NCBI RefSeq assembly: GCF_000422345.1
Contig: NZ_AULP01000001.1
Span: forward strand, 372,001-436,000
DNA from: Neomelitea salexigens DSM 19753
GTDB lineage: Bacteria > Pseudomonadota > Gammaproteobacteria > Pseudomonadales > Spongiibacteraceae
Direction of reading: 5' to 3'
DNA length: 64,000 bases
Of this stretch, positions 9,414-31,755 are shown in pieces. Numbering within the stretch: the first letter of the stretch is position 1; each line of letters opens with the position of its first letter. Under the pieces are notes generated by a model. The model searched no databases, was not told the DNA's origin, and worked only from the letters and a program-made list of their open reading frames with translations. The translations under genes and the position numbers were made by a program.

Positions 9414-11938
<2,525 letters not shown>

Positions 11939-12042
11939 ACTCTCGATCACTAAAAATAAAGGCCGCAAGATTAACGGAAATCGCTTTCGGACTCCATTCA
12001 TCGACATTTAGAGGGAAAACAGCAATTTTTTTAGCCGATGGA

Positions 12043-18201: not shown

Positions 18202-19122
18202 ATGGAAAGGGTCCAACAGTCGCCGCAAAAATTGGACGCCTCGCGGCTACTCCTAATGTCTGGGACCTTGATTGGTCTCAGCTTTCCGATGGCAAAGCTG
18301 GCATCGGCTAACGGCTTGAGCCCGCTTTTTTGGGCGATGCTCACGTCCCTTGGCGCCGTCATAGCCCTGTTTCCTGCGCTCTGGTTGCAAGGCCGTTTAC
18401 AGCGCCCACGCGGCCAGCACCTGCGCTACTGCCTTATTGCCGGGCCACTCAGTTTTGCCGCGCCAAATCTATTGCTAGTAATCAGTGTGCCGCACAGTGG
18501 GGCGGGCTATACAGGATTGATGTTTGCCCTGTCACCGCTGTTCACACTCGTTTTTGCCGCGCTATTGCGTCAGCAAACCACCAGCGGTCTCGGCGTATTG
18601 GGCGTGGTGTTAGGTTTGTTGGGCGCCGTCGCCGTCAGCGTCTCACGCGGCAGCGCCGCCGATGCGCCTGAGCTGGGATACCTGCTGCTGGCATTGTGTA
18701 TTCCGATGCTTCTTGCCGCGGGAAATATCTACCGCAGCTGGGACTGGCCACCAGGAGCCGCGGCAGACGAGCTCGCTCTGTGGAGCCACGGTTTTGCCAG
18801 CCTTAGCTACTTGCTGCTACTTGTCACTACCAGTGGGCCCCAAGGCCTTTTTCAGCTTGGTTTGGCACCGGCGCTAAGTAGCGCGCAATTACTGATTGCA
18901 GCAGCAACTGCGCCGCTGATATTCCGATTGCAACAACGCGGCGGCCCGGTACTGCTCAGCCAGCTGGGCTACGTGGCGGCCTCAGTCAGTATGCTGATAT
19001 CCGCCTCGTTACTTGGCGAGCAATACCCGCCAGGGGCGTGGGCAGGTGCCGCTGCAATCGCGCTGGGCATTGCCATCAGCAGCGCAGCAGCTAAACGCCA
19101 CGCATCATTAGCCGAAGCGTGA
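18202..19122 (+). CDS. EamA/DMT-superfamily exporter
   Basis: Inner-membrane drug/metabolite transporter of 306 residues with about ten hydrophobic segments arranged as two EamA repeats. [19 protein letters not shown] opens the first and [21 protein letters not shown] closes it. ATG 18202, one base after the nitroreductase stop, has GGAGG nine bases upstream; the frame is open seven codons further but without a better site. Last gene of the LysR-associated operon, so it may export the substrate or a product of the pathway. Its end overlaps the convergent trpS end by 15 bases. Confidence 0.87.
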
Positions 19123-20115
19123 CAACCCTACCGCGCCGCGCACTTTATCTAGCATTATCGCCGCCTCGGCGCGGGCTTTCTCTGCGCCTTTGGCCAGCTC
19201 AGCATCGAGGTAACTGCCGTCGTTGAGCATGGCATCGTAACGCTCGCGCGCCGCTGAGATTTGATCGTTGATCAATTCAAATAACTGCTTCTTGGCCTCG
19301 CCCCAGGCAATACCATTTTCAAACTCGCGGCGCATGTATGCCGTTTGCTCGGCATTGGCAAAGGCCTGCCAAATTTGAAAAACCGTTGAGTCATCTGGGT
19401 CTTTAGGCTCACCCGGTTCCAGCAGATTGGTTTTGATTTTATTGATGTGTTTTTTGAGTTTTTTCTCAGGCAAAAACAGCGGAATGGTATTGCCGTAGCT
19501 CTTACTCATTTTTCTGCCATCCAAGCCACTGAGCACCGCCACGTCTTCATCGACAACGGCTTCTGGCATGGCAAACGTTTCACCGTAAATATGGTTAAAA
19601 CGCTGAGCGATATCGCGCGCCATTTCCAAGTGCTGGGTTTGATCACGCCCCACCGGCACACGCTGCGCGTTGAACATCAGGATATCTGCCGCCATTAACA
19701 CTGGGTAACAGAACAAGCCCATGGTCACACCAAAATCGGCGTCCTCACCTTTTTCCTGGTTGTCCTGCACCGCCGCCTTATAAGCGTGGGCGCGGTTCAT
19801 CAACCCCTTGCTCGCCACACAGTTGAGCACCCACATCAATTCGGTAATTTCCGGCACATCAGACTGGCGATAAAAGGTCGTGCGATCCGTATCCAGGCCC
19901 AACGCCAGCCACGTAGCCGCAATCTCACGGGCAGACTGATGCACGGCCGCCGGATCCTGACATTTGATCAACGCGTGGTAGTCGGCCAGAAAGAAGAAAC
20001 TGTCTTGCTCGGTGGACTGACTCTCTGCAATTGCAGGGCGAATTGCCCCAACATAGTTACCCAAATGCGGCGTGCCAGTGGTGGTAATGCCGGTGAGAAC
20101 CCGGGGCTTGGCCAT
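19108..20115 (-). CDS. trpS: Tryptophanyl-tRNA synthetase
   Basis: Class I synthetase that charges tRNA-Trp. The 335 residues contain the HIGH-equivalent [11 protein letters not shown] near 14-24 and the KMSKS loop [10 protein letters not shown] near 199-208, on a Rossmann fold with the tryptophan-binding helices [11 protein letters not shown] and [13 protein letters not shown]. The length is that of the short bacterial form. It runs opposite to the DMT gene, overlapping it at the stops. The glycosyltransferase upstream is on the same strand, 73 bases away. Confidence 0.97.
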
Positions 20116-20188: not shown

Positions 20189-21292
20189 TCAGCAGCAAAG
20201 CGCATCGAAATGACGCTGATACTGTGCTGCGATACACGGCCAATATAGGCCGGAAATATCGGGCGTCTGTAGCGCCCCGCAGCGTTTTTCGGCCAGCAGT
20301 GCGACCAGCGCTTCGCAGGCCGACTCTGCCTCGACAGCGGGCGCATCCAAGGCGCTGTCGTATAAATACGGCGCGTCAAACCACTGCGGGTAACACAAGC
20401 GCGCTGGCAACAATGGCCGGCACCCCGCGGCAACAGCCTCCATCACCGCCAACCCCTGAAAGTCGTGCAGCGCCGTCGACAGCACCACATCACTGGCGGC
20501 CAAGAGTTTTTCGTACTGATCACGGCTTTCCACGTAGCCAAAATGTTCGCAGACCAGGGACTGACTGCGGGTAAGCAAGCGTTCAATGTCACTGAAAGCC
20601 TTGGGGCGTTTGCGAAACTGTTGGCCAATGATGTGTATGTCGAGAGGCAAGGCGGCGCGCTCGCAAGCCTGCAATACCAAGAGCAATTGCTCTGGGCCTT
20701 TATCGTATTCCCAGCGGTGATTCCACAACACCGACAAGCGCTCGCTCGGCAAGCGCGGCGCTGCTGGTGCTGGCGGTGCAATACCGACTGGCAGCACCTC
20801 GCTTTCGTTAAGCCGGGTCATCACCTCGCTGCGCGGGCTGAAGTCGGGCAACTTAGCCAGTAGCCTATCGGCGCCCTCGATAAACGTTTGGCGGTTGTAG
20901 TCACTATTGAACAGCACCTTGTCTGCCGCCAGGGCGGTGTACAAATTTAGTATCTGAGGTTCAACGCCCTGTCGCTGCTGCGCGCTCACGGGGTAGGCGA
21001 ACTGGTTCTCGTGGAAATACACCAGCGTCGGTAAGCGGCAAAGCGACGGGCATAACCCTCGCAGAGCGGATAAATCGGTCATCGATGTGGCGACCAGTAA
21101 ATCGTAGTCGGCATTTAGTTGTTCACTTTGCAGCATTGCCCAACTCAGGCTATTACCGCGTAATCGCCAACTAAAATGGCGTGGCGGCAGCGTAAGCACC
21201 GTCCACTGATGCGTCGGCATCGCCGCCACCAGACCGTCAGCCCAGGCTTTGTGGCTATTCGCGTGGTAGGCCGACAATAGCAAGATGCGCAC
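20189..21292 (-). CDS. DUF3524 glycosyltransferase, GTDC1/QTMAN-like
   Basis: Cytosolic glycosyltransferase of 367 residues, without signal peptide or membrane span. The N-terminal half (about 1-165) is DUF3524: SAYHANSHKAWADGL, WTVLTLPPRHFSWRLRG, ATSMTDLSALRGLCP and VYFHENQFAYPV. These follow the same path as human GTDC1, the tRNA-queuosine alpha-mannosyltransferase. The C-terminal half is GT-B/GT4-like with LWNHRWEYDKGPE, HIIGQQF and VLSTALHDFQGLAVMEAVAAGC, the nucleotide-sugar site. Queuosine genes queA and tgt are in this window, about 9 kb away. Mannosylation of queuosine here is an inference by homology; another acceptor is possible. Confidence 0.82.
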   Translation of the reverse strand: MRILLLSAYHANSHKAWADGLVAAMPTHQWTVLTLPPRHFSWRLRGNSLSWAMLQSEQLNADYDLLVATSMTDLSALRGLCPSLCRLPTLVYFHENQFAYPVSAQQRQGVEPQILNLYTALAADKVLFNSDYNRQTFIEGADRLLAKLPDFSPRSEVMTRLNESEVLPVGIAPPAPAAPRLPSERLSVLWNHRWEYDKGPEQLLLVLQACERAALPLDIHIIGQQFRKRPKAFSDIERLLTRSQSLVCEHFGYVESRDQYEKLLAASDVVLSTALHDFQGLAVMEAVAAGCRPLLPARLCYPQWFDAPYLYDSALDAPAVEAESACEALVALLAEKRCGALQTPDISGLYWPCIAAQYQRHFDALCC

Positions 21293-21424
21293 AGTTTCCC
21301 CTCACATTACAGAAGCGTCGGAAGTATACGCACTCGTTGACCCGACTACAGTGCTGCACTACCCTTCTTTCCCCACTATCTGGCCCCGTGCCACGTTCAT
21401 TCACAACAATAGGCAAGCACTGAC

Positions 21425-31679: not shown

Positions 31680-31755
31680 TCCGCCTTAGCTCAGTTGGTA
31701 GAGCAAATGACTGTTAATCATTGGGTCGCTGGTTCGAGCCCAGCAGGCGGAGCCA
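31680..31755 (+). tRNA. tRNA-Asn (anticodon GTT)
   Basis: A 76-base tRNA with encoded CCA. The acceptor stem pairs TCCGCCT with AGGCGGA. The anticodon stem AATGA/TCATT holds loop CTGTTAA, anticodon GTT. This tRNA is a substrate of Tgt, so its G34 should become queuosine. An intrinsic terminator follows directly. Confidence 0.97.

Follow-up and report, generated by a model that had tools for sequence, protein, structure and literature searches.

Background

Does a bacterium add a sugar to the queuosine of its own tRNA? This question is raised by a gene in a 64,000-nucleotide stretch of the genome of Neomelitea salexigens DSM 19753, hereafter the window, the product of which had been predicted to be a homologue of the vertebrate queuosine mannosyltransferase and to act on queuosine made by Tgt and QueA of the same cell. 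QTMAN (GTDC1) is reportedly the animal tRNA-Asp queuosine mannosyltransferase, as Zhao and colleagues are said to have described in Cell in 2023. In bacteria, queuosine-34 (Q34) of tRNA-Asp is used by GluQRS, the glutamyl-queuosine tRNA-Asp synthetase encoded by gluQ.

Mannosyl-queuosine (manQ) is attributed to QTMAN/GTDC1 in two papers (PMC12518689, PMC11705514), the first of which calls the role of sugar-bearing queuosine unclear, and a 2020 review (PMC7694415) assigns manQ to eukaryotes, not bacteria. Within a partial coverage of the literature, titles and abstract openings held no report of sugar-bearing queuosine in a bacterium, which is not proof of absence, and no test of a bacterial PF12038 (DUF3524) protein. 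Here, we analyze the window protein, its relatives, and the genomes that carry them, and weigh the activity proposed for it against the alternatives.

Methods

A motif filter (HEN plus an HR-type motif) was applied to 112 loci encoding relatives of the window protein; 92 passed and 20, L008 among them, were missed. Alignment A2 comprises 77 of the 92 loci that passed, rows with at least 72 per cent identity or shorter than 300 aa having been dropped, and alignment A1 was made without L013 and L020. Conservation of the HEN and HR motifs within A2 is partly the result of selection, because the filter chose the loci. Residue conservation was counted from a six-frame profile search that used no motif filter and covered every locus but L002-L004. 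It yielded 140 segments from 137 of the 139 loci; each count refers to the segments that cover the column in question.

For the gene neighbourhoods, 304 neighbour positions were reduced to 159 representatives of at most 900 aa, of which 116 were scanned, the other 43 and all proteins longer than 900 aa being left out. The clustering recovered the gene itself in 79 of the 80 loci.

Results

An intact QTMAN-family gene

The N-terminal DUF3524 half, with the peptides SAYHANSHK (aa 7-15), LTLPPRHFSWRLRG (aa 33-46), and VYFHENQFAYPV (aa 91-102), and the GT4-like C-terminal half that the original prediction described are present, and the ORF lies exactly where stated, at 20189-21292 (minus strand), with both Pfam domains above their cut-offs (Table 1). 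PF12038, of which we take DUF3524 to be the former name, is currently called QTMAN_N ("tRNA-queuosine alpha-mannosyltransferase N-terminal") in Pfam, and its match to the 367-aa protein (193.7 bits against a cut-off of 25, E 2.7e-57, model positions 1-168 of 168) is far beyond chance, which bears out the claimed homology to the queuosine mannosyltransferase family. Glycos_transf_1 (PF00534) lies just above its own cut-off (26.8 against 26.4 bits, aa 181-291), and a scan of the same protein against NCBIfam brought no family near its cut-off. The QTMAN_N half is presumed to be the acceptor-side Rossmann domain. The protein has a pI of 5.8 and a net negative charge, and contains no hydrophobic stretch, the maximum 19-residue hydropathy being 1.3.

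Table 1. Features of the window discussed in the text
Feature	Position	Strand	Basis or remark
tgt, tRNA guanosine(34) transglycosylase, makes acceptor precursor	9721..10884	-	TIGR00430, 539.7 bits
queA, makes acceptor precursor	10877..12007	-	NF001140, 493.7 bits
trpS, tryptophanyl-tRNA synthetase, 73 bases downstream of QTMAN-like gene	19108..20115	-	PF00579
QTMAN-like glycosyltransferase gene, 367 aa, GTG start	20189..21292	-	Intact ORF, Pfam, predicted fold
GT4-like C-terminal donor domain (PF00534), aa 181-291, with R193-x4-K198 and D277-x7-E285	20420..20752	-	Pfam; residue roles by analogy
QTMAN_N domain (PF12038), aa 2-171	20780..21289	-	193.7 bits, whole model
Likely ribosome-binding site GAGGGG	21298..21303 (21303-21298 on strand)	-	Read from sequence
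tRNA-Asn (GUU), possible substrate only	31680..31755	+	One of four tRNAs expected to carry queuosine-34

Predicted fold and conserved residues

An AlphaFold model built from the 77-sequence alignment adopts a confident GT-B fold (mean pLDDT 95.9, pTM 0.92), and structure ranking with VIA-align placed GT-B enzymes first, at Z of about 24-31. Sucrose-phosphate synthase is the top match (Z 30.8, rmsd 2.9, 331 aligned), followed by GlgM (Z 30.7); BshA and MshA are also among the matches, as are PimB' (Z 26.0) and PimA (Z 25.0), which use GDP-mannose, and many UDP-sugar enzymes. Because enzymes for GDP- and UDP-sugars both match, the fold does not tell which donor the window protein uses, and it was rejected for that purpose. 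Among solved structures compared by sequence, WaaG/RfaG scores best (E 0.0049), and the family profile picks up distant GT4 chains, chiefly in the C-terminal half.

The N-terminal half of GT4 enzymes usually holds the acceptor. In the family of the window protein, S13, H14, Y92, H94, E95, Q97, P101, F128, N129, G223, and G280 show no variation in the 136 covering segments and N96 is kept in 135 of 136, the loci not being independent, with many from related marine species. The provisional human GTDC1 sequence used for comparison has the same conserved N-terminal residues (S13, H14, Y92, H94, E95, N96, Q97, and P101).

Among the donor-side residues, R193 is kept in 139 of 139 covering segments, K198 in 137 of 137, and E285 in 133 of 136, and position 277 is D in 74 segments and E in 62. 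In GT4 enzymes an R-x4-K motif binds the donor phosphates and is joined by an EX7E-type acid pair, usually with glutamate at the position equivalent to D277; by analogy, R193-x4-K198 should bind the donor phosphates here, and D277-x7-E285 would be the EX7E-type pair. HENQ, RxxxxK, and the EX7E-type pair, which together mark the family, are all present in the window protein, their roles again being assigned by analogy. Loss of sugar-donor residues had been named as a finding that would speak against the proposed activity; these residues have not been lost in the window family, since R193, K198, G280, and E285 are near-invariant. H192 of the HRWExDK motif is less strict: of 139 segments, 118 have H, 19 have A, and 2 have G at this position. 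The 20 loci that failed the motif filter (L066 and L080 as well as L008) are possibly in part the same loci as these A and G variants.

Link to queuosine synthesis

Tgt and QueA, stated to be encoded in the same window, were both found there by NCBIfam, and their genes adjoin each other (9721-12007) on the same strand as the QTMAN-like gene, 8-9 kb from it. The expected co-occurrence of DUF3524 with tgt is seen in the counts but carries little information. Among 50 carrier genomes, Tgt is above the cut-off in 49 and QueA in 47, and none is without both: one metagenome-assembled genome (MAG; G283) has QueA and no Tgt match, whereas G280 and G368 have no QueA match and G389 has one below the cut-off, all three having Tgt. 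Across the two samples as a whole, tgt is present in 255 of the 274 Gammaproteobacteria and in 135 of the 140 Myxococcota, and within the Gammaproteobacteria it is found in 17 of 17 carriers vs 238 of 257 non-carriers (Fisher p 0.62, a value that ignores kinship and genome size). With tgt in nearly every genome of the groups sampled, its co-occurrence with QTMAN_N hardly discriminates, and it was rejected as strong support for lack of power.

Gene order is a weak positive for the queuosine link. Among 80 loci whose flanks extend to 8 kb at most (they are complete in 52), tgt was found nine times, in two arrangements: beside queA (L022-L025, from Spongiibacter/Zhongshania), and at the end of a tgt-yajC-secD-secF run (L051, L053, L055, L056, and L063, one of which is titled OM182). 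The identities of all four genes of the run in L051, of tgt in L055, and of both tgt and queA in L022 were checked with Pfam; queA is present in five of the 80 loci (L022-L025 and L035). The arrangements amount to two events at best, because related species share gene order.

Many Myxococcota genomes have two, and some three, Tgt-family matches (G304, G314, G324, and G333 are examples, with 511.7 and 500.4 bits in G304), and the second paralogue may have a substrate of its own.

Gene neighbourhood and sugar donor

The adjoining trpS gene is possibly co-transcribed with the QTMAN-like gene. It lies within 300 bases of the gene in 21 of the 80 loci and anywhere in the locus in 25, and the trpS-linked loci (L021-L026 among these) include Spongiibacter, Zhongshania, Microbulbifer, and Teredinibacter. 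The neighbours are mixed, the commonest Pfam families including DEAD helicases (3 members) and tRNA-synt_1b (2). No glycosyltransferase or sugar-nucleotide family is found among the 25 commonest of the 144 Pfam families in the 116 neighbours scanned (one per neighbour family), or among the 25 listed of the 411 NCBIfam neighbour families. Of ten neighbours scanned one by one, two (in L051 and L087) are cell-wall lytic transglycosylases.

A beta-helix domain of ManC, the GDP-mannose pyrophosphorylase, is encoded in the source genome itself (G000:C11). ManC was detected in 30 of 33 carriers, with no match in G266, G288, and G389, vs 27 of 33 controls picked by hand from genomes without QTMAN_N (17 Gammaproteobacteria, all of at least 3.0 Mb, and 16 Myxococcota; p 0.48, kinship and genome size being ignored). 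With no difference from the controls, ManC was rejected as a discriminator of the donor.

Distribution of the family

The source genome measures 3.44 Mb in 21 contigs and is 99.99 per cent complete; the best named relative is Spongiibacter marinus, whose copy of the protein shares 95 per cent identity. The distribution of the gene is patchy: PF12038 exceeds the cut-off in 17 of the 274 Gammaproteobacteria sampled, in 16 of the 140 Myxococcota, and in 28 of the 398 Pseudomonadota (29 at E 0.001), the Gammaproteobacteria and Pseudomonadota samples having two carrier genomes in common, and the family is absent from the E. coli control genome. All 60 matching genomes have a single match, which is a fragment in three (G052, G610, G695). 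Fragmentary QTMAN_N copies with an in-frame stop (L020 at G052:C30, and L141 and L142; genomes G052, G695, and G610) reflect either decay or assembly error.

In the collection of named genomes, at least 565 stretches encode a relative; among the best 80, which were fetched, only L081 and L089 lie outside the Pseudomonadota, judged by title. One of the loci, L088, comes from a MAG labelled Klebsiella pneumoniae and has the gene together with neighbours common to other loci; the label is probably wrong. A mobile element was considered and rejected: plasmids held no relative of the window protein or of L108, phages none of the window protein, and viral contigs none of alignment A1 or of L108.

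Two clades

The bacterial family falls into two clades, one with the signature "SAY..SH / mostly EYDK / FQGL", to which the window protein belongs, and one with "EPxxGGSH / mostly EHDK / FFG". Differences that are fixed or nearly fixed include S7 vs E7, and Q279 in 69 of 71 sequences of the window clade vs F279 in 5 of 6 of the second; the core donor and acceptor residues are common to both. The provisional human GTDC1 sequence can be aligned with bacterial members across both halves, the values for the window protein being 41 per cent across 128 aa and 32 per cent across 154 aa. In an unrooted tree of 47 bacterial rows, it groups with the second clade, on a long branch, and the branch between the clades is supported at 100/99.

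The placement of human GTDC1 with the second clade is a lead only. Because the tree puts the two proteins on opposite sides, the window protein would be a homologue from the other clade and may not be a strict orthologue of human GTDC1. Given this separation, the window clade may have changed its sugar or its acceptor. A copy in a MAG labelled Rhodoferax sp. OV413 (L100) groups with that of Gammaproteobacteria bacterium LSUCC0112 (100/100), and the label is doubtful.

Coexistence with GluQRS

The suggestion that gluQ would be absent where DUF3524 is present was not borne out. The source genome has gluQ (TIGR03838, 340.2 bits against a cut-off of 276.7). With p values that ignore kinship and genome size, gluQ was above the cut-off in 15 of 17 gammaproteobacterial carriers, judged by E-value, vs 153 of 257 others (Fisher p 0.02; the total of 168 of 274 may take in some GltX-size frames), in 11 of 16 Myxococcota carriers vs 4 of 16 non-carriers, the ones picked by hand for ManC out of 124 without QTMAN_N (p 0.03), and in 14 of 14 further carriers of the window's own order vs 17 of 18 non-carriers (p 1.0). 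Of the 15 gammaproteobacterial carriers, 12 have an open frame of 302-343 aa and G223 one of 438 aa; the matches in G155 and G266 (E about 1e-92) are without a listed position.

The coexistence of gluQ and QTMAN_N is firm, and absence of gluQ was rejected as support. Since carriers mostly have gluQ, the QTMAN-like gene is not a substitute for GluQRS. The enrichment of gluQ in carriers is not firm and may reflect lineage and genome size; it was set aside as support because it disappears in the window's own order, nearly all sampled members of which have gluQ. As GluQRS of the same cell uses Q34 of tRNA-Asp, that tRNA is contested as a substrate.

In family f199, from another class of Pseudomonadota, the TIGR03838 cut-off seems ill-set: it is passed by frames of 462-577 aa (G437, G444, G466), so that the tally overstates gluQ in this family because the passing frames are GltX-sized. 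Six of the 10 genomes of this family that were searched have a second match of 308-331 aa below the cut-off, maybe a divergent GluQ.

Discussion

The window protein is homologous to the QTMAN family and shares its anatomy, from which we infer the activity, sugar, acceptor tRNA, and regiochemistry proposed below. We put at roughly 55 per cent the probability that it is a QTMAN-like glycosyltransferase, probably GDP-mannose-dependent, that acts on queuosine-34, most likely in tRNA-Asp. As such, it would be a soluble, retaining GT-B (GT4-type) enzyme for which a sugar nucleotide, most likely GDP-mannose, serves as donor. The sugar, most likely mannose, would be attached to one of the ring hydroxyls of queuosine-34 in a GUN-anticodon tRNA, in a step following Tgt, QueA, and an epoxyqueuosine reductase. 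If the enzyme does use queuosine, two end marks coexist in one cell, and they would therefore either compete for tRNA-Asp, giving a mixed population of glutamyl-Q and mannosyl-Q forms, or be split between tRNAs. Glycosylation of queuosine in the wider sense, with another sugar or another tRNA also counted, is likely.

The evidence counted in favour of the mannosyltransferase reading comprises the whole-model PF12038 match, the strict N-terminal half, the donor residues, a fold shared with PimA and PimB', Tgt and QueA in the carriers, the single match per genome, tgt in nine of the 80 loci, the lack of a sugar family among the 25 commonest neighbour families, and ManC in 30 of 33 carriers. Against it are counted the tgt comparison (p 0.62), ManC in the controls, the three carriers without ManC, the one without Tgt (G283), the position of human GTDC1 in the other clade, the contested tRNA-Asp, the net negative charge, a fold blind to the donor, the A and G variants at H192, the lytic transglycosylase neighbours, and the 2020 review that placed mannosyl-queuosine in eukaryotes.

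The main rival reading is a surface-glycan enzyme, in which case the protein would be an orphan GT4 enzyme for a glycolipid, a polysaccharide, or a small molecule, with common ancestry as the only meaning of the QTMAN name. The fold is common to many such enzymes, GT4 enzymes often change acceptor, and some copies stand beside the cell-wall enzymes noted above, but we consider this reading unlikely on account of the one match per genome in 60 genomes, neighbourhoods whose 25 commonest families include none typical of glycan clusters, an N-terminal half strictly conserved across Pseudomonadota and Myxococcota loci, and the lack of a hydrophobic stretch. It is also improbable, in our judgment, that queuosine-34 is glycosylated with a different sugar or in a different tRNA (Asn, His, or Tyr) while GluQRS keeps tRNA-Asp: the routine coexistence of gluQ and QTMAN_N and the clade differences at positions 7 and 279 point that way, but the core donor and acceptor residues are common to both clades, and positive evidence was found for neither the other sugar nor the other tRNA.

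That the window protein is inactive, or conserved for a non-catalytic role, is very improbable. Nothing specific favours it beyond D277 in place of the usual GT4 glutamate, and D is the commoner residue at this position in the family; the frame is intact, a ribosome-binding site and the catalytic residues are kept, and the Spongiibacter marinus copy is nearly identical.

Returning to the reading of the protein as a queuosine mannosyltransferase, the family already bears this name in Pfam, and the homology suggests that some bacteria may add a sugar to queuosine as well. On a broader scale, we regard as tentative, at slightly under even odds, the picture in which a range of marine Gammaproteobacteria, Mariprofundus, and Myxococcota make sugar-queuosine beside glutamyl-queuosine, as two competing or tRNA-partitioned marks at position 34, and in which the animal enzyme has a common descent with one of two old bacterial clades. 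If this picture is true, a culturable bacterium with both the sugar mark and GluQRS would allow the role of the mark in decoding at Asp, Asn, His, and Tyr codons to be asked directly, and the finding would bear on the origin of the animal enzyme.

Comparison with known systems

Among the closest known systems is QTMAN (GTDC1), which, going by the provisional human sequence, shares with the window protein the QTMAN_N domain, the GT-B donor domain, the YFHENQ and HRWExDK motifs, and the EX7E-type acid pair. The window protein differs in having S7 rather than E7, mostly Y-D-K and F-Q-G rather than H-D-K and F-F-G, and no counterpart of an insertion of roughly 100 aa in that human sequence; its host, furthermore, is a bacterium with its own tgt, queA, and gluQ. 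The retaining GT4 enzymes PimA and PimB' (both GDP-Man), BshA, MshA, and SenB resemble it in fold (Z about 25-29), whereas their identity is at most 19 per cent in the listed rows, whole-length sequence comparison gave no match between them and the window protein, and their acceptors are different. GluQRS has the same expected acceptor, queuosine-34 of tRNA, and yet is unrelated, being a paralogue of glutamyl-tRNA synthetase that adds glutamate where the window protein is predicted to add a sugar.
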